Origin: Fusobacterium sp. IOR10
GTDB lineage: Bacteria > Fusobacteriota > Fusobacteriia > Fusobacteriales > Fusobacteriaceae
Direction: 5' to 3'
DNA: 64,000 nt
NCBI RefSeq assembly: GCF_010367435.1
Contig: NZ_WJWY01000003.1
Location: 1 to 64,000 of the forward strand
Positions 25,478 through 62,648 of this stretch are shown here, one piece after another (positions within the stretch are counted from its first letter, which is position 1; every line of letters starts with the position of its first letter). A program made the position numbers and the translations under genes. Under the pieces are notes generated by a model. That model ran no database searches. It saw only the letters and a program-made list of their open reading frames with translations, and had not been told where the DNA came from.

Positions 25478-25513
25478 CAATAAAAAACAACCTAATCATA
25501 AGCAATTAGGTTG
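25478..25513 (-). terminator. attenuator terminator of the brnQ leader
   Basis: Read on the minus strand, CAACCTAAT (25513-25505), loop TGCTTATG and ATTAGGTTG (25496-25488) form a 9-bp stem followed by TTTTTTATT. It lies between the leader peptide and brnQ, so it controls brnQ rather than ending an upstream gene. A copy of the 3' arm, ATTAGGTT, occurs at 25613-25606 inside the leader peptide frame and can pair with the 5' arm to form an antiterminator. Confidence 0.85.
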
Positions 25514-25552: not shown

Positions 25553-25729
25553 TTACGCAAAATTGCAATGATAATTTAATTTATATAAAAATTTATGTTT
25601 TAAGAAACCTAATATACTCTTATTCATACTAAAAAATCTGTTACGTATGACTAGTATTAGTAGCACTAATATAGTTATTAGTATCAGTAAAATATTTATT
25701 ATGAATATTTTAAGTGTATTATTAAACAT
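25553..25729 (-). CDS. brnQ leader peptide (58 aa, Ile/Leu/Val-rich)
   Basis: A 58-codon reading frame starts at 25729 after AAAGGAGAAATATTT and stops at 25553, with no obvious homologue known to me. Its first half is a hydrophobic run of Ile, Leu and Val (FIINILLILITILVLLIL), written with CTA (four times), CTG, GTG and GTC codons that looked uncommon in the genes around it. The second half is basic (RNRFF, LKHKFLYK) and ends with a Tyr-His-Cys segment. Codons 39-41 contain the antiterminator ATTAGGTT. Placement, codon content and RNA pairing indicate a ribosome-sensing leader peptide. A functional single-pass membrane miniprotein is the alternative, and both may hold. Confidence 0.8.
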   Translation of the reverse strand: MFNNTLKIFIINILLILITILVLLILVIRNRFFSMNKSILGFLKHKFLYKLNYHCNFA

Positions 25730-53433: not shown

Positions 53434-54462
<1,029 letters not shown>

Positions 54463-54482
54463 CTAATTTTTATATATTTATA

Positions 54483-55286
54483 TTATTTAACGATGACCCA
54501 AGGTCTTCCTTGTTCCCAAACTAATTTTACATCCACTTCATATAAAGTAGATAGATTTTTTTCTGTAAGTACTTCTTCTTTTTTTCCAGTTGCAATCATA
54601 GTTCCATCTTTTCCTAAAATTGCCACATGGGTAATTTCAGGAATAAGTTCATCTAACTGATGTGTAACATATATAAATGGTGCTGTTGTTTTTTGTGTGG
54701 TATTTCTTAAAAGATTTAAGAAATGTTCTCTAGATTTTAAATCCAAACCAGTACAAGGTTCATCTAAAATAAGAAGTTTTGGATTATTCATAAATGCCCT
54801 AGCTAAAAGAACCTTCATTTTTTCCCCTTGTGAAAAGTTTTTATAATTTTTATTAATTAAATAGGAGATTCCAAATTCCTCTATTAATTTATTAGCTAAC
54901 TTAATATCTTTATCATTAATTTTTTCATATATTCCAATGGAACTAAATTTCCCAGAAATTATAATATTTTCAACACTTTGAATGTTTAAAATGTTTGAAA
55001 AGTTAGATAAACTAGAACTTACAAAACCTAATTTTTCTCTAACATTAGCCCAAACACAATTTCCAAATAAATTCCCAAATACAGTAAGTTCTCCGCTACT
55101 AGGAAAAGAATAGGCAGGAATCATATTAAGTAATGTTGATTTTCCAGTTCCATTAAGTCCAATTAGTGCCCAGTGTTCCCCAGAATTTATATTCCAATTG
55201 ATTTTATCTAATATCTTTCTTCTATTTCTTGTAAAAGAAATATTTTTAAAATTCAAAATTTCTTTTTTATTTAATGTATGTTCCAT
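54483..55286 (-). CDS. stand-alone ABC ATPase (YlmA-like)
   Basis: A 267-residue single ABC ATPase domain: Walker A GLNGTGKS (~43-50), signature-like FSQGEKMKVLLARAF (~151), Walker B LLILDEPCTGLD and the H-loop in VTHQ. It resembles the YlmA/ModF-like soluble ATPases. No permease or binding protein is near, so its role is unclear. The start overlaps the leuB 3' end by 16 bases, which implies coupled translation and a link to branched-chain amino-acid metabolism. It could pair with a distant transporter or act in translation. Confidence 0.8.
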   Translation of the reverse strand: MEHTLNKKEILNFKNISFTRNRRKILDKINWNINSGEHWALIGLNGTGKSTLLNMIPAYSFPSSGELTVFGNLFGNCVWANVREKLGFVSSSLSNFSNILNIQSVENIIISGKFSSIGIYEKINDKDIKLANKLIEEFGISYLINKNYKNFSQGEKMKVLLARAFMNNPKLLILDEPCTGLDLKSREHFLNLLRNTTQKTTAPFIYVTHQLDELIPEITHVAILGKDGTMIATGKKEEVLTEKNLSTLYEVDVKLVWEQGRPWVIVK

Positions 55287-56332
55287 GCTATTAAGTCCCC
55301 CATTTGAGAAGTTGAAATTTTCTTAGTTCCTTCACTGTATATATCAGGAGTTCTATAACCCTGATCTAAAACTTTTTTCACTGAAGCTTCAATAGCTTCA
55401 CTTTCTTTAACTAAATTAAAGGAATATTTTAACATCATAGCAACAGATAATATAGTTGCTATTGGATTAGCAATTTCTTTTCCTGCAATATCAGGAGCAG
55501 ATCCGTGAACAGGTTCGTATATTCCTAATTTAGAATCACCTAAACTAGCAGATGGAAGCATCCCAATTGAACCAGTTAGCATAGAAGCTTCATCAGATAA
55601 AATATCTCCAAATAAATTTCCAGTTAAAATAACATCAAATTGTTTTGGATTAACAACTAATTGCATAGCAGCATTATCCACATACATATGATCAACCTTA
55701 ACTTCAGGATAATCCTCTCCAACTTTAATAACAACATCTCTCCAAAGTTTAGAACTATCTAAAACATTTCTTTTATCAACATTTATTATTCTATTTTTTC
55801 TTAATTTAGCAATTTCATAAGCTTTTTTAGCTATTCTCTCAACTTCAAAATTAGAATAAAGTAAAGTATCATAGGCTTTTTCTTCATCTCTATTTCTAGG
55901 GCCAAAATATAGTCCTCCAGTTAGTTCTCTAACTACCATAATGTCTAATCCACCTTTAATAATAGACTCTTTTAAAGGGGAAGAATCCTTAAGAGATTCA
56001 AACAACATTGCAGGTCTTAAATTACAATAAAGATTAAGAGCTTTTCTTATTTGTAATAATCCTTTTTCAGGTCTAAGATTAGGATCAATATCATCCCATT
56101 TAGGACCTCCAATAGATCCCAAAAGTATAGAATCACTTTCTTTACATAATTTTATAGTTTCTTCACTAAGAGGAACTCCATATTTGTCAATTGATTCTCC
56201 ACCTAAGTAACCTCTTTTATAGATGAAATTATGATTGTATATTTTTCCAATTTTATCAAAAATTTTAATTCCTTCATTTACAATTTCAGGGCCTATTCCA
56301 TCTCCCTTTAAAATGGTGATTTTATAATCCAT
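55271..56332 (-). CDS. leuB: 3-isopropylmalate dehydrogenase
   Basis: LeuB oxidises 3-isopropylmalate with NAD+ (EC 1.1.1.85). The 353-residue protein has the family start ITILKGDGIGPEIV, the substrate-binding RKALNLYCNLRPA and VRELTGGLYFG segments, and the metal/NAD region LTGNLFGDILSDEASML and HGSAPDIAGKEIANP. AGGAGG precedes the ATG. It lies between leuD and an ABC ATPase gene that it overlaps. Confidence 0.98.
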   Translation of the reverse strand: MDYKITILKGDGIGPEIVNEGIKIFDKIGKIYNHNFIYKRGYLGGESIDKYGVPLSEETIKLCKESDSILLGSIGGPKWDDIDPNLRPEKGLLQIRKALNLYCNLRPAMLFESLKDSSPLKESIIKGGLDIMVVRELTGGLYFGPRNRDEEKAYDTLLYSNFEVERIAKKAYEIAKLRKNRIINVDKRNVLDSSKLWRDVVIKVGEDYPEVKVDHMYVDNAAMQLVVNPKQFDVILTGNLFGDILSDEASMLTGSIGMLPSASLGDSKLGIYEPVHGSAPDIAGKEIANPIATILSVAMMLKYSFNLVKESEAIEASVKKVLDQGYRTPDIYSEGTKKISTSQMGDLIAWNIH

Positions 56333-56340
56333 ATATCCTC

Positions 56341-56916
56341 CTAATAATTTTTATTTTCATATTCTTTTATTAAATTGATAGATTCTAATGTAACGTCAAT
56401 AGCATCGAGACCTTTTAATAGTTTAGTTTTCCAAGATTCTTCCAATTGAAAACTAAAGTTAAATTCATTGGTTATGACCTTATTATTTTCTAAATCAATT
56501 GTAATTTTTTCATCTCCAGGGATAAGGGCAAGTTTTTCCCTTTGATCCCTAGGAAGAATAATAGGAAGATGTCCGTTATTTAGCCAGTTCATATAAAATA
56601 TTCCAGAATAACTTCCTGCAATAATTACATGTATTCCATAATCTTGTAATGCCCAAGCAGCATGTTCTCTTGAAGATCCACATCCAAAGTTTTCACCAGT
56701 AATTAAAATAGTTCCAGTTTTATATTGAGGTTTATTTAAATTAAAGTTTTCATTTTCACTTCTATCTTGATTATATCTCCATTCATCAAAAACATAGTCT
56801 CCAAAACCAGTCTTTTCAGTACTTTTAAGATACTGTTTAGGAATAAGTTGATCAGTATCAATATTGTTATGCATAATTGGAATGATAGTTCCACTATATT
56901 TAGTAAAAGCTTTCAT
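56341..56916 (-). CDS. leuD: 3-isopropylmalate dehydratase small subunit
   Basis: LeuD is the swivel domain partner of LeuC (EC 4.2.1.33). The 191-residue protein has the family start FTKYSGTIIPIMHNNIDTDQLIP and the GENFGCGSSREHAAWAL motif. Its LeuC partner is part of the upstream LeuA-LeuC fusion five bases away. No internal oddity is seen. Confidence 0.97.
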   Translation of the reverse strand: MKAFTKYSGTIIPIMHNNIDTDQLIPKQYLKSTEKTGFGDYVFDEWRYNQDRSENENFNLNKPQYKTGTILITGENFGCGSSREHAAWALQDYGIHVIIAGSYSGIFYMNWLNNGHLPIILPRDQREKLALIPGDEKITIDLENNKVITNEFNFSFQLEESWKTKLLKGLDAIDVTLESINLIKEYENKNY

Positions 56917-56921
56917 AATAA

Positions 56922-59816
56922 TTAAACCTCCTCAATTTCAAATCTAGCATCTATAAAATGACCATAAATTGCAGCAAGAACAGCCATAGCTGGACTTATT
57001 AAATGAGTTCTAGCACCATTTCCTTGTCTACCTTCAAAATTTCTATTTGATGTGGAAGCACAGTGCTCCCCATAAGGTATTAAATCAGGATTCATTCCAA
57101 GACAACTAGAACATCCAGATTCTCTCCACTGGAAACCAGCATCTTTAAATATTTTGTCAATTCCAAGTTCTTCAGCTTGTTTTTTAATGATTTGAGATCC
57201 AGGTACAACTATTCCTGAAATATTAGGATTTATTTTTCTTCCCTTTATATATGAAGCTGCAATTTTTAAATCACTTAATCGTCCATTGGTACAAGAACCT
57301 ATAAAAACGTGTTTTAATGGAATGCTTTCAGGAGATGCTCCAGGAGTTAGTCCCATATATTCATAGGCTTTCTTATCATTTATATCCTTTATGATTGGGA
57401 AAGTATCTGTTATATTCATTCCCATTTCAGGAGAAGTTCCCCAAGTAATCTGAGGCTCTAAATTACTTACATCTAAGTTGATTATCTTATCAAAGGCTTC
57501 AGGGGAATCTGTTTTTAACATTTTCCATTTAGAAAGCATATTTTCCCATTCTTCTTCATTAGGAGCATAAGGTCTTCCTTTTAAATATTCAAAAGTTTTT
57601 TCATCAGGAGCTATAATTCCAGATTTTCCTCCAGCTTCAATGGCCATATTACAAATTGTTAATCTGCTTTCCATGTCTAAATTTTCAATAGTATCTCCAA
57701 AGAATTCAAAAGCATAGCCATTTCCAACAGCAACTCCATAAGTTTTTATAAAGTGTAATATAATATCTTTAGCATAAACTCCCTTAGGTAAATTTCCAGT
57801 TATTTTAACTCCCATTGTTTTTGGTTTTTTTTGCCACAAGGTTTGAGTTGCAAGAACATGCTCAACTTCACTTGTTCCTATACCAAATGCAATAGCTCCA
57901 AAGGCTCCATGAGTTGCAGTATGGCTATCTCCACATACAATTGTTTTTCCTGGTTGAGTTAATCCTTGCTCAGGGCCAACAGTGTGAACAATTCCATTTC
58001 TTTCATCATTCATATGTGCAAGCTCTACTCCAAACTCTTTACAGTTATTTTCCAAAGCATCCAATTGGGCTTGAGAGAAAGGATCCTTAATACATTTTCT
58101 TTCTTCCACAGTGGTTGGAGTATTATGATCCATAGTGGCAAAGCATAGTTCTGGTTTTCTAACAGTTCTATTTTTTAGTTTCAATCCAGAAAAGGCTTGG
58201 GGAGAAGTTACCTCATGAAGTAAGTGTAAATCAATATAAAGTAACTGAGCTTCTCCAGTTTTTCCTATAATAACATGATTATCCCAAATTTTATCAAATA
58301 ATGTTTTTCCAAGGCTGCAAACTCTATTTATTGCATTAATGTAAGCTTTTATACTTGCTTCAACAATATCAGTACTTTGTCCACGGCCTATATATTCTTT
58401 TTCTTTATTTAAAATTATCACTGTTGCTTGAGCTTGAGCATCAACATCCTCTGTTATTGCATCTAATTTATATTCAGATAAGAAAGGTTCAGAACCAAAT
58501 ATTTTATTAATAACTTGGAAAGCTGCATCCACAGGACCATCTCCATAGGCTTCTCCAGTTTTTAAATTTCCATTTTCTAATATTTCAACCTTTGCTTTTG
58601 TTTTATTATTATCCCTATAAATCTCAAAATGTTTAAGTTTGAATTTGCCATTTGTTGAAATACCTGCATCTCCTGCAATTAATGCAATAATATCATCATC
58701 TAGAATATATTTCTTTTTATCTGCTAATTTTTTAAATGCATCAAATAGTTGAGATACTTTGTCTTCAGATAAATTATGGATTCCTAAAGTATTTAATTTA
58801 TCAATAAAAGCATGTTTTCCAGAAAGTTTTCCAAGTATAAGACTGTCACTAGTTCTTCCCACTGTATCTGGTTTCATAATTTCATATGTTTCTGGATTTT
58901 CCAAAACTCCATGTTGATGAATTCCAGATTCATGGGAAAAGGCATTTGCTCCAACAATAGCTTTATTTGGTTGAGGTTCAACACCTGTTAACAAACCAAC
59001 TAATTTGCTAGTAGGGTACAATTGTTTAGTATTAATATTTGTTTGGTATTCTTTAAATATATCAGTACGAGTATTAATGATCATAACCACTTCTTCTAAA
59101 GAAGTATTTCCTGCTCTTTCTCCTAAACCATTTATTGTACATTCAATTTGAGTTGCACCTCCTTTAATAGAGGCTATTGAATTAGCTACTGAAAGTCCTA
59201 AATCATTATGACAATGAACTGATATTTCAGCTTTTTCAATATTTCTTATATTAGATTTTAAATAAGAAATAAGAGAATACATTTCTTCAGGTGTTCTATA
59301 ACCAACAGTATCAGGGACATTTAATATTGTAGCTCCAGCTTCAATAGCTGTTGAATAAGCTTCAACTAAAAATTCTTTTTCTGTTCTTGTTCCATCTTCA
59401 CAAGAAAATTCCACTTCATCTACAAATTTTCTAGCATAGGCAACATTTTCCTGTATACTATTTATAATTTCTTCTTTGCTCATTTTTAATTTAAATTTTC
59501 TATGTATTGGGGAAGTTGCAATAAAAACATGAATTCTTGTTTTAGTTCCTTCTTTAAGAGCTCTAACAGAAGCATCAATATCTTTTTTAACAAGTCTAGA
59601 TAAACTAGAAACAGTTGATTTTTTAATTTCTTTAGCTATTAAACTCACTGCTTCAAAATCTCCAGGTGATGCAATTGCAAAACCTGCTTCAATAACGTCT
59701 ACTCCCAAATGTTCCAATTGTTTTGCTATTCTTAATTTTTCATTAGTATTTAAATTCACCCGAGGTGTTTGTTCTCCATCTCTTAAAGTTGTATCTACAA
59801 TTTTGATGTTTTTCAT
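56922..59816 (-). CDS. leuA-leuC: LeuA-LeuC fusion: 2-isopropylmalate synthase joined to isopropylmalate dehydratase large subunit
   Basis: One 964-residue frame contains two complete enzymes. Residues ~1-499 are Leu[11 protein letters not shown] (9-16 core), [29 protein letters not shown], and a C-terminal leucine-binding allosteric domain. Residues ~503-964 are Leu[41 protein letters not shown] and [12 protein letters not shown] with the three cluster Cys. The joint (~499-503, around 58310-58320) has no ATG and no ribosome site for LeuC, so the fusion looks real and not just an annotation effect. It would physically join steps one and two of leucine synthesis. An assembly frameshift remains to be excluded. 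Confidence 0.92.
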
Positions 59817-59825
59817 AAAATCCTC

Positions 59826-60314
59826 CTATATTTTTTCTCCTCTTGACATTGCAAGGGTTCCAGTTTTAGCTACTTCTAAAATTCCATATTCCTTCATGAG
59901 TTCTAAGAAACCTCTGAGCTTAGGAACTTTCCCAGTAAGCTCAATAACTATGGAATTTGAAGCTACATCTAATATTTTTCCCCTATAGACATCAGCTATT
60001 TGAATTATTTGAGAACGAGTTCCAGGTGATGAATTAACTTTTACTAACATTAATTCTCTTCTAAGAACATTTTCTTCAGGAAAGATTTTAACCTTAACCA
60101 CATCTATAATTTTATAAACTTGTTTTTGTATTTGATGTAAAATTTGTTCGTCCCCTTGTACACTTAAAGTTAATCTAGCGTAACCTTCTTTGTTTGTTGC
60201 TCCAGCTGTCATTTTTTGTACAAGATATCCACGTTTATTAAAAAGGAGCATAATCCTAGCTACTATTCCATTTGTATTTTTAGTAATAATTAAAACTTCT
60301 GATGTTTTAGTCAT
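59826..60314 (-). CDS. ilvN: acetolactate synthase small (regulatory) subunit
   Basis: A 162-residue ACT-domain protein of the IlvH/IlvN type that binds valine and activates the catalytic subunit. The ACT start is VLIITKNTNGIVARIMLLFNKRG, and the second half (VDVVKVKIFPEENVLRRELML) matches IlvH's C-terminal domain. Where E. coli has an NxSG motif, this copy has NTNG. The start follows the ilvB stop in a TAAATG arrangement, so the two are translationally coupled. Confidence 0.94.
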   Translation of the reverse strand: MTKTSEVLIITKNTNGIVARIMLLFNKRGYLVQKMTAGATNKEGYARLTLSVQGDEQILHQIQKQVYKIIDVVKVKIFPEENVLRRELMLVKVNSSPGTRSQIIQIADVYRGKILDVASNSIVIELTGKVPKLRGFLELMKEYGILEVAKTGTLAMSRGEKI

Positions 60315-62024
60315 TTAAATCACTCCTTTTTTTCCAATCATTTTATCAACAGAATAATTACTAGGTACCATAGGTAAAACATTTTGATTCTTATCAACTA
60401 CAAATTCTATTAAAACAGGTTCGTTTAAATTAAGTAAATTTTCTAGATTTTCATTTAGATCTTCTTTTGTTGATAGTTTCATAGATTTAATATCATAGGC
60501 TTCACCAATTTTTACAAAATCAGGATTATATGTTAAATCCACTTGAGAGTATCTTTTTTCATTAAAAACTTCTTGTAATTGTCTAACCATTCCTAAGCAA
60601 GAGTTATTAATTATTAAAATTTTTATAGGAAGGTTGTATTCCCTTAAAAGTATCAATTCTTGGATAGTCATTTGGATACTACCATCTCCAACTATTAGTA
60701 CTACATTTTTGTTAGGATTTGCAATTTGTGCTCCTATTGCAGCAGGTAATCCAAATCCCATTGTACCAGCTCCCCCAGATGAAATAAGTGTATTAGGTTT
60801 ATTAAAATTAATAAATTGAGCTGTCCACATTTGATGTTGTCCAACATCTGTTGCAATAAGAGTGTCATCTTTTAACAAAGTATTTAATTTATTAAAAACA
60901 TATTGAGGAACTAAAGAATTATCATTGCTTTCAGGTATAATCAAAGGGTATTCTCTTTTCCAAGTATTAATTTTATCAATCCATTCTTCATGAGTTAAAC
61001 TTTGTAAATTATCGTTAAGTTTATTAAGAACATTATTTAAATCTCCAACTATAGGCACATTGGAAACTATATTCTTATCAATTTCAGCAGGATCAATATC
61101 AATATGAATAATTTTTGCATTTGGACAGAATTCTTTTATGTTCCCTGTAACTCTTTCATCAAATCTCATACCTGCTGCTATAATTAAATCAGCTTGTTTA
61201 GTTGCATAGTTTGAAGCAACAGTTCCATGTAATCCAAGCATTCCTAGCATTAATTTGTGATTACTTGGAAATCCTCCAAGGCCCAGGAAAGTACAAGTAA
61301 CAGGACAATTTATTTTTTCAGCAAATATTAATAGTTCATCAGAAGCACCAGATTTAAGTATTCCTGCCCCAGATATTATTAAAGGACTTTTTGAACTTTT
61401 AATAAGCTCAGTGGCTCTTTTTATTTGTCCAGCATGTCCCTTGTAAATTGGATCATATCCTTCAAGGATAAAGTCTTTTTCAAATAATTTTTCAAATTCA
61501 TCAATTGATATTTCAGTGCTTTGTATATCCTTTGGTATATCTATTAATACAGGACCAGGTCTTCCAGTTTTTGAAAGATAGTAAGCTTCTTTGATTATTC
61601 TAGGTAAATCTCTAATATCTGTAATAAGATAATTTGTTTTTGTTATTGGAATAGTAATACCAACAATATCAGTTTCTTGAAAGGAATCAGTTCCAAGCAA
61701 AGTTGTTTGAACTTGTCCAGTTATAGCAAGTAAAGGAACAGAGTCCATATGAGCAGTCATAATTCCAGTAACAATATTTGTAACCCCAGGTCCAGAGGTA
61801 GCTAAGCAAACACCAACTTTTCCACTTGATCTAGCATAACCATCTGCTCCATGAATTGCACCTTGCTCATGTCTTGCAAGATAATGTTTTATTTTTTTGA
61901 AGTCATATAATTCATCATAAATTTTAAGGACAGAACCTCCTGGATATCCAAACATATCAGTGACTCCAAGTCTAGATAAACACTCTAATAAGATTTTTGC
62001 CCCGCTTATTGTTTTTGATTCCAT
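60315..62024 (-). CDS. ilvB: acetolactate synthase catalytic subunit
   Basis: A 569-residue ThDP-dependent enzyme (EC 2.2.1.6), first common step of Ile and Val synthesis. Motifs are EQGAIHGADGYARSSG with the catalytic Glu, ATSGPGVTN, the FAD-related GLHGTVASNYA region and the ThDP motif GDGSIQMTIQELILLRE plus NNSCLGMV. The start is behind a leader peptide/attenuator, so synthesis should respond to charged tRNA for branched-chain amino acids. A second synthase of this type lies upstream. Confidence 0.97.
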   Translation of the reverse strand: MESKTISGAKILLECLSRLGVTDMFGYPGGSVLKIYDELYDFKKIKHYLARHEQGAIHGADGYARSSGKVGVCLATSGPGVTNIVTGIMTAHMDSVPLLAITGQVQTTLLGTDSFQETDIVGITIPITKTNYLITDIRDLPRIIKEAYYLSKTGRPGPVLIDIPKDIQSTEISIDEFEKLFEKDFILEGYDPIYKGHAGQIKRATELIKSSKSPLIISGAGILKSGASDELLIFAEKINCPVTCTFLGLGGFPSNHKLMLGMLGLHGTVASNYATKQADLIIAAGMRFDERVTGNIKEFCPNAKIIHIDIDPAEIDKNIVSNVPIVGDLNNVLNKLNDNLQSLTHEEWIDKINTWKREYPLIIPESNDNSLVPQYVFNKLNTLLKDDTLIATDVGQHQMWTAQFINFNKPNTLISSGGAGTMGFGLPAAIGAQIANPNKNVVLIVGDGSIQMTIQELILLREYNLPIKILIINNSCLGMVRQLQEVFNEKRYSQVDLTYNPDFVKIGEAYDIKSMKLSTKEDLNENLENLLNLNEPVLIEFVVDKNQNVLPMVPSNYSVDKMIGKKGVI

Positions 62025-62065: not shown

Positions 62066-62106
62066 AAACAAAAATGACCCAATGGAATAGATTCCATTGG
62101 GTCATC
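62066..62106 (-). terminator. attenuator terminator of the ilvB leader
   Basis: On the minus strand ATGACCCAATGGAAT (62105-62091) pairs with ATTCCATTGGGTCAT (62088-62074) and is followed by TTTTTGTTT. It lies between the leader peptide and ilvB. ATTTCATTG at 62229-62221, inside the leader frame, can pair with CAATGGAAT of the 5' arm (nine pairs, one G-U), giving an antiterminator. Confidence 0.85.
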
Positions 62107-62139
62107 AAAAAGTTTTATATTAGTTTATAAGATTAAAGA

Positions 62140-62298
62140 TTAAATACATTTACAATGTTTCTCTAAAATATATTTATACTTAAGTACTACAAAACTATTA
62201 TCAGTAACTTTAAGGCAATTCAATGAAATCAAACCTGTTACGAGACCGATAAGGACTAGCAGTATGCTTATTATAAATATAATTTCAAATGTAAACAT
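62140..62298 (-). CDS. ilvB leader peptide (52 aa, Ile/Leu/Val-rich)
   Basis: A 52-codon frame begins at 62298 after AGAAGGAGAAAGAA and ends at 62140. It reads MFTFEIIFIISILLVLIGLV in its first part, with codons CTG, CTA, GTC, ATC and CTC that looked uncommon in the neighbouring genes, and ends with a basic segment LKYKYILEKHC. The antiterminator segment lies within codons 24-26. By position between a promoter and a terminator this is a ribosome-sensing leader peptide. The core IFII-x-ILL-x-LI and the LK-aromatic-K and HC tail match the brnQ leader, so the peptides form one family. Confidence 0.82.
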   Translation of the reverse strand: MFTFEIIFIISILLVLIGLVTGLISLNCLKVTDNSFVVLKYKYILEKHCKCI

Positions 62299-62328
62299 TT
62301 CTTTCTCCTTCTTTTAATTATTTGTAAC

Positions 62329-62356
62329 ATCTTATCAAAAAAAGTCCGCAATGTAA
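62329..62356 (-). promoter_or_regulatory. putative promoter of the ilvB leader
   Basis: On the minus strand TTACAT (62356-62351) and TAAGAT (62334-62329) are 16 bases apart, about 30 bases before the leader peptide. There is no terminator between the upstream ilvM-like gene and this point, so upstream transcription may also pass through. Confidence 0.45.
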
Positions 62357-62417
62357 AATACATTAAATAAACAGTAGGCGTTCTATGAATATATATAATG
62401 AATAGTTTGAGAATGTG

Positions 62418-62648
62418 TTAATTTTTATCTTTAATTTCAGAAACATTAAAGACATCAATAAGTCTTTCAATTTGTTTTTTTAAATAAATTTCTTTTTGGT
62501 TCTCTTCAGAAAAAGAAAGAGTAATATTAGAAGTTTGGTTATCAATTTTAAAAGAGAATTCATTTATAAAAATTCCAAGTCTACTAGTTAATCCAATAAG
62601 TCTACTTAGAGTCCAAGGGCTATGTCTTGCTACAATTAAAAGTTTCAT
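62418..62648 (-). CDS. ilvM: small ACT-domain protein, acetolactate synthase regulatory subunit (IlvM-like)
   Basis: A 76-residue protein with a single ACT-like domain (VARHSPWTLSRLIGLTSRLGIFINEF). Its length and place directly after a second acetolactate synthase catalytic gene match IlvM of the ilvGM type. The ATG follows the upstream stop codon in TAAAATG, and its AGGAGG lies inside the upstream gene's last codons, so translation is coupled. Valine sensing cannot be judged. Confidence 0.75.
   Translation of the reverse strand: MKLLIVARHSPWTLSRLIGLTSRLGIFINEFSFKIDNQTSNITLSFSEENQKEIYLKKQIERLIDVFNVSEIKDKN

Follow-up and report, generated by a model that had tools for sequence, protein, structure and literature searches.

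What governs transcription into ilvB of Fusobacterium sp. IOR10 (G000)? The window analysed here, a stretch of 64,000 nt of this genome, carries the gene on the minus strand (60315–62024; acetolactate synthase large subunit, with Pfam TPP_enzyme N/M/C domains), and 393 bases separate its start at 62024 from an ACT-domain gene that ends at 62418. An earlier note, which put this gap at 390 bases, proposed that it encodes an Ile/Leu/Val leader peptide with a terminator and an antiterminator. Our analysis leads to the same reading. Judged from the sequence and from folding models, the ilvB leader is very probably a ribosome-mediated transcription attenuator that would sense the supply of charged Ile-, Leu- and Val-tRNA.

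The ilvB leader and its surroundings

The leader ORF (62140–62298, minus strand, as are the other features of this locus) consists of an ATG start, 52 codons in all and a stop, and reads MFTFEIIFIISILLVLIGLVTGLISLNCLKVTDNSFVVLKYKYILEKHCKCI. An AAGGAG ribosome site (62305–62310), which is kept in the congener G006, lies 6 bases before the ATG, and the frame length and the good ribosome site are thus as the note described them. Codons 6–20 (62239–62283) encode Ile, Leu or Val at 12 of 15 positions and include CTG, CTA, GTC, ATC and CTC, the codons that had been pointed out. In the genes of the window, CTC and CTG account for 0.6% and 1.0% of Leu codons, GTC for 2.4% of Val codons and ATC for 6.3% of Ile codons. 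These four rare codons occur 4 times in the run, compared with 0.83 expected (p 0.008).

A weak candidate promoter, TTTACA-17-TAAGAT with a TG ahead of the second hexamer, is located at 62329–62357. Promoter matches in the gap were no better than chance (4 found, 4.0 expected in shuffles); the corresponding site of G006 reads TTTACT-17-TAGTAT. Counting the promoter-like sequence, the functional unit extends over about 62066–62357, a minor correction to the otherwise correct 62066–62356 proposed earlier.

The intrinsic terminator (62066–62106) starts 33 nt past the leader stop. Its 15-bp stem, GATGACCCAATGGAA-TCTA-TTCCATTGGGTCATT (62073–62106), has 6 G-C pairs and a 4-nt loop and is followed by a T-rich tail. 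The earlier note had also described a 15-bp stem before ilvB. It is the sole terminator-like site in the gap, and with 0.1 such sites expected in shuffles it is clearly non-random. One could regard it as closing the ilvD-ilvB1-ilvM operon upstream, with the downstream ilvB copy (ilvB2) transcribed from an unregulated promoter of its own further down. The preceding operon does end at 62418 with no other terminator in between, but the stem lies 312 nt past that end, with an ORF and its ribosome site in between, and only 48 nt from the ilvB start. The same arrangement is also found ahead of ilvD in relatives, and we consider an operon-end terminator very improbable. Because there is no terminator between the ACT-domain gene and the leader, polymerase coming from the ilvD promoter would also need to get past the proposed ilvB attenuator.

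The remainder of the proposed operon after ilvB (53434–60314, minus strand) comprises ilvN (59826–60314), a fused leuA-leuC (56922–59816), leuD (56341–56916), leuB (55271–56332), an ABC ATPase gene (54483–55286) and ilvC (53434–54450). Pfam domains and ORF translations identified the downstream genes as ilv and leu genes; leuD, leuB and the ATPase gene were named from their ORF translations. LeuA and LeuC are encoded in one ORF of 964 aa, in which HMGL-like and LeuA_dimer domains precede an Aconitase domain. Within the operon, the ABC-type ATPase gene is flanked by leuB and ilvC, and an ORF resembling the C-terminal part of the ATPase is also found ahead of ilvC in G094 and G056. The ACT-domain gene upstream of the leader (62418–62648, minus strand; Pfam ACT_5) encodes an ilvM-like protein of 76 aa, which is probably a short regulatory subunit of acetolactate synthase. 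Two adjoining operons of this genome each hold an ilvB gene. The IlvB of the operon studied here is 62–67% identical to the IlvB proteins of family f4, compared with 55% to the IlvB1 encoded just upstream.

Antiterminator pairing and ribosome-masked folding

The claim that codons 24–26 can pair with the 5′ arm of the terminator also stands. The core pairing of ATTTCATTG with CAATGGAAT comprises 9 bp, one of them G-U, and extends to 10 bp, again with one G-U, between GATTTCATTG and CAATGGAATC. Pairing and folds indicate GATTTCATTG (62221–62230), which takes in the end of codon 23 and codons 24–26, as the 5′ half of the antiterminator; the 3′ half, CAATGGAATC (62090–62099), is located within the 5′ arm and loop of the terminator. 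An accessory pairing is formed by AAAGTT (62206–62211), identified in the MFE fold with a stalled ribosome and in the alignment, and AACTTT (62109–62114), which is situated just upstream of the terminator and is equivalent to ACTTTTAAGGC in relatives. AAAGTT matches the AAAAGTT part of a motif conserved in these relatives. In the no-ribosome and stop-codon folds, the 5′ half is enclosed in a local hairpin, GGUUUGAUUUCAUUGAAUUGCC (62214–62235; proposed segment 1:2), and GGUUCAAUUCCAUUGAAUUACC of G006 is able to form the same hairpin. The ORF continues for 26 more codons after the antiterminator 5′ half, and the stop lies 78 nt beyond it.

In dinucleotide shuffles, the pairing had a p value of 0.022, or of 0.032 with the terminator 5′ arm alone. 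Values of 0.02–0.03 make the complementarity by itself suggestive only. The complementarity of a single leader is only modestly unusual; the case for an attenuator rests on recurrence, and comparison with other leaders is what renders it convincing.

A terminator with a structured leader (z −3.4) might be controlled by other means, namely a T-box, a metabolite or ppGpp riboswitch, or an RNA-binding protein. T-boxes govern ilv-leu in Bacillus subtilis (PMC5794164), and one T-box scores above the cut-off elsewhere in the G006 genome. However, no T-box (RF00230) was detected at the ilvB leader, either at the gathering score or in the list of matches with E<=5, or anywhere in the G000 genome, and the leader has no match to any Rfam family at gathering score. 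The complementarity is moreover tied to a translated-looking Ile/Leu/Val ORF, and control of these other kinds has, in our judgement, very little probability. Low-score Rfam matches at the terminator (VrrA and others) fell far below the cut-offs and were discarded. Elsewhere in the window, a SAM riboswitch (RF00162; 7314–7401, plus strand) precedes a gene that reads as S-adenosylmethionine synthetase.

The behaviour expected of an attenuator was modelled by folding the RNA through the terminator loop, without the 3′ arm, and masking positions −14 to +16 around the P site of a ribosome. When the ribosome was placed at the Ile/Leu/Val codons, the predicted probability of the antiterminator was 0.99 on average and at least 0.98. 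In the ribosome-free fold it was 0.34. It fell to 0.00 when a ribosome occupied the stop codon, a state in which the local hairpin GGUUUGAUUUCAUUGAAUUGCC sequesters the antiterminator segment in the model; with the A site at codons 22–31, it was also 0.00. Predicted capture of the 5′ arm was 0.72 in the stalled state versus 0.04 at the stop, a contrast that 0 of 80 shuffled leaders reached. In this model, the textbook masking of segment 2 by a ribosome at the stop codon appears to be replaced by the local hairpin.

The leaders of G004, G073 and G046 and both ilvB leaders were alike in the folding model. The ilvD and brnQ leaders of G000 and the leaders of G053 and G054 gave no clean stop-codon state; the antiterminator was predicted to form with a ribosome at the stop in some f4 leaders (1.00 in G053 and 0.99 in G054), and the brnQ leader had no contrast between stall and stop (0.96 and 1.00). 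The ilvB leader of G006 had an antiterminator probability of 0.98 without a ribosome; given this value and the 0.34 of G000, a failure of translation may not give clean termination. These folds treat a kinetic process at equilibrium. In folds that include the 3′ arm, the equilibrium prefers the terminator in nearly every state, and the decision must therefore be kinetic, with the antiterminator forming first. The antiterminator forms first in known attenuators as well.

Leaders elsewhere in the genome, in a congener and in the order

The earlier note called the ilvB leader the second of its kind. The first is presumably that of brnQ, a gene identified by its Pfam Branch_AA_trans domain (branched-chain amino acid transporter). 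Its leader ORF (25553–25729, minus strand) has 58 codons rich in Ile, Leu and Val and reads MFNNTLKIFIINILLILITILVLLILVIRNRFFSMNKSILGFLKHKFLYKLNYHCNFA; a terminator, CAACCTAATTGCTTATGATTAGGTTG (25488–25513, minus strand), was found in the scan of upstream regions. ATTAGGTT at codons 39–42 pairs with AACCTAAT in the terminator 5′ arm. The brnQ leader and terminator are present in G006 and reduced in G002. A further leader (L031), MNLKTISIIGLILSIIIIIVQIKIQTLASSEKEILIKL, precedes ilvD of the adjoining operon, outside the window (contig C3, about 66127–66011, minus strand). It has a promoter-like TTGACA-17-TATACT and a terminator, AGCCGACA..TGTCGGCT (65971–65950, minus strand), and its GTTGGCT at codons 26–28 pairs with AGCCGAC. 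L031 and the ilvB leader are arranged in series, with L031 first. For the pairing in the three G000 leaders, the Fisher combined p was 0.004, and G006 keeps all three.

Comparison of the two ilvB leaders shows how their parts have changed. Codons 4–20 differ between G000 and G006 by 4 synonymous and 0 non-synonymous changes, whereas codons 21–44 differ by 7 non-synonymous and 0 synonymous changes, and the end of the peptide is different in G006. This pattern indicates that the run retains its Ile/Leu/Val identity and that, beyond the run, the RNA pairing is kept and the peptide sequence is not. It bears on the alternative that the ORF is the gene of a genuine small membrane protein, with the Ile/Leu/Val run as a transmembrane helix and the terminator incidental. 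A hydrophobic stretch of about 20 residues could span a membrane, and the ORF is well provided with a ribosome site. Against this, the retention of Ile/Leu/Val identity and RNA pairing alongside a freely diverging tail argues against a stable membrane protein. The ORF has no match in Pfam or PDB, and the peptide search of relatives recovered a clear homologue only ahead of ilvB in G006. Equivalent ORFs also precede ilvD, ilvB and brnQ, and the terminator that follows them is in most cases complementary to the ORF. There is, in our view, only a slight chance that the ORF encodes such a protein.

Other matches of the leader-peptide search were low-scoring hydrophobic stretches, mostly within larger frames, and were rejected. 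Because this search found only G006 with confidence, relatives were surveyed by scanning the regions upstream of ilvD (50), brnQ (30) and ilvC (30). An Ile/Leu/Val-rich leader followed by a terminator was found ahead of ilvD in about 30 genomes of families f1 and f4. In f1, the bearers belong to genera g1, g7, g8 and g13, together with g4, which has a short leader of 20 aa; in f4, they include most members. The 30 loci upstream of ilvC yielded no convincing leader, and among the 30 scanned for brnQ none outside this genus was convincing. Three loci ahead of ilvD (L262, L268 and L269, from G032, G022 and G065) carry the 20-aa leader MNKFKNLFTIIIIICFWVWI, or a near copy, and a terminator; their antiterminator segment comes after the stop codon, nearer to the classical layout.

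The f4 leaders share the motif ALKVSxNDF, encoded by GCCTTAAAAGTTTCT..AATGATTTT. In nearly all of them, GCCTTAAAAGT within the ORF pairs with ACTTTTAAGGC, which consists of the last bases before the terminator and its 5′ arm, and most core pairs are formed in 19–21 of 21 sequences. When the terminator arm alone was used, the pairing test gave weak p values for f4; inclusion of 10 nt more upstream revealed duplexes of 10–14 bp, with p values down to 0.0005 in shuffles. G090 has ACCTT paired with AAGGT in place of the GCCTT and AAGGC of the others, with both partners altered. At codons 21–26, the equivalent position, G073 has a 14-bp duplex of ATCATCTATTGAAT with ATTCAATGGATGAT and G004 has an 11-bp duplex; the unrelated pairing sequences of these two look like conserved pairing without conserved sequence. 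Over eight lineages, the Fisher combined p for pairing was 1.3e-7. Pairing was not significant in G095, G013, G025 and brnQ of G002, and G056 has only a shifted 6-bp duplex. We also considered ALKVSxNDF as an arrest peptide and set this aside, the block being explained as an antiterminator half that pairs with ACTTTTAAGGC.

The ilvB leader itself carries CLKVTDNSF (TGCCTTAAAGTT), which is recognisably the f4 motif. Its AAAGTT-AACTTT pair is still formed, while the main pairing lies about 10 nt further upstream than in f4, at GATTTCATTG.

Proposed switch and known systems

The ilvB locus thus combines an ORF that has a ribosome site and matches no known protein, a run of codons for the amino acids that the operon produces, a terminator, and a conserved antiterminator. 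The 5′ half of the antiterminator lies just past the control codons, and its 3′ half shares sequence with the 5′ arm of the terminator. We propose that RNA polymerase transcribes the leader with its Ile/Leu/Val run and that, when charged Ile-, Leu- or Val-tRNA is scarce, a ribosome would stall on codons 6–20. The stalled ribosome would block the local hairpin and leave codons 23–31 free to pair with the emerging spacer and terminator 5′ arm; the terminator would not form, and ilvBN-leuAC-leuD-leuB-ABC-ilvC would be transcribed. When charged tRNA is plentiful, a passing ribosome would cover codons 23–31 or leave them in the local hairpin behind it. With these codons unavailable, the terminator would form and transcription would end after about 250 nt. 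Translation of the leader, stalling, termination and its efficiency, the response to amino acids and the extent of the operon are what we infer. Recurrence before brnQ and ilvD, in G006 and in relatives, together with the masked folding, supports the leader-peptide attenuation put forward in the earlier note, and the observation at ilvB is real and most likely what that note took it to be.

From its position, the ilvB switch would operate in series behind a second attenuator, the one ahead of ilvD. A broader proposal, which we put forward tentatively as a possibility somewhat short of an even chance, is that branched-chain attenuators occur throughout the order, with an in-ORF antiterminator motif GCCTTAAAAGT (ALKVS), a hairpin reset, serial ilvD-ilvB switches and a third switch at brnQ. 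If so, polymerase from the first promoter would pass both switches, which would give graded control of Ile/Val versus Leu synthesis, and the brnQ switch would control uptake. The attenuator reading provides a concrete model of how a little-studied bacterial order may sense branched-chain amino acids with no T-boxes at the genes concerned, and it would tie synthesis (ilv, leu) and uptake (brnQ) to one kind of sensor. The in-ORF antiterminator and serial layout offer a testable case of the limit on the distance from stop to switch. Leader-peptide attenuation did not turn up for this group in the open literature that we searched, though an earlier mention is possible.

The ilvGMEDA, ilvBN and leuABCD operons of Escherichia coli and Salmonella are controlled by leader-peptide attenuators. 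Like these, the ilvB leader has an ORF rich in end-product codons, a terminator, and an antiterminator 5′ half just past the control codons. Unlike them, it shows no detected sequence relationship (no Rfam hit), its antiterminator half lies in the ORF, 26 codons from the stop, and its terminator begins 33 nt after the stop. In the E. coli-type layout the stop adjoins segment 2, whereas here it lies 78 nt past the segment end. In the folding model, the ilvB leader works like this layout, but it is not a member of it. The branched-chain leader peptides of E. coli and Salmonella have been cited as precedents (PMC5794164) for Staphylococcus aureus, where suppressor mutations support attenuation by a leucine-rich peptide ahead of ilvD. 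The S. aureus system likewise has a short Ile/Leu/Val-rich ORF and a terminator ahead of ilv-leu, but its peptide is 26 aa long, its terminator lies 52 nt after the stop, and in its proposed antiterminator it is the poly-U, not the 5′ arm, that is sequestered (PMC5794164).

Rli60 of Listeria monocytogenes is an ilv-leu attenuator for which attenuation is experimentally supported (PMC5864092). It resembles the ilvB leader in having a peptide rich in branched-chain codons, ahead of ilvD, and a four-segment terminator/antiterminator; it differs in that its hairpins lie downstream of a 13-aa peptide and that it acts with CodY (PMC5864092), whereas the ilvB leader peptide has 52 aa with the antiterminator half encoded within. 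The ilvBNC operon of Corynebacterium glutamicum likewise has an attenuator with hairpins upstream of ilvB, but in a different phylum and gene order and with a three-hairpin model (PMC11857589). WRC-18-2 of Veillonella is a structured RNA upstream of ilvD, in some cases with a terminator, but it was reported in Veillonella only, and its authors regarded it as a weak candidate for a riboswitch and not as a leader peptide (PMC8632094). Set beside these systems, the mechanism proposed for ilvB is itself textbook; less usual are the two attenuators in series and the placement of an antiterminator half within the ORF, 26 codons ahead of the stop, and the order-wide spread and the details of the layout merit a short description.
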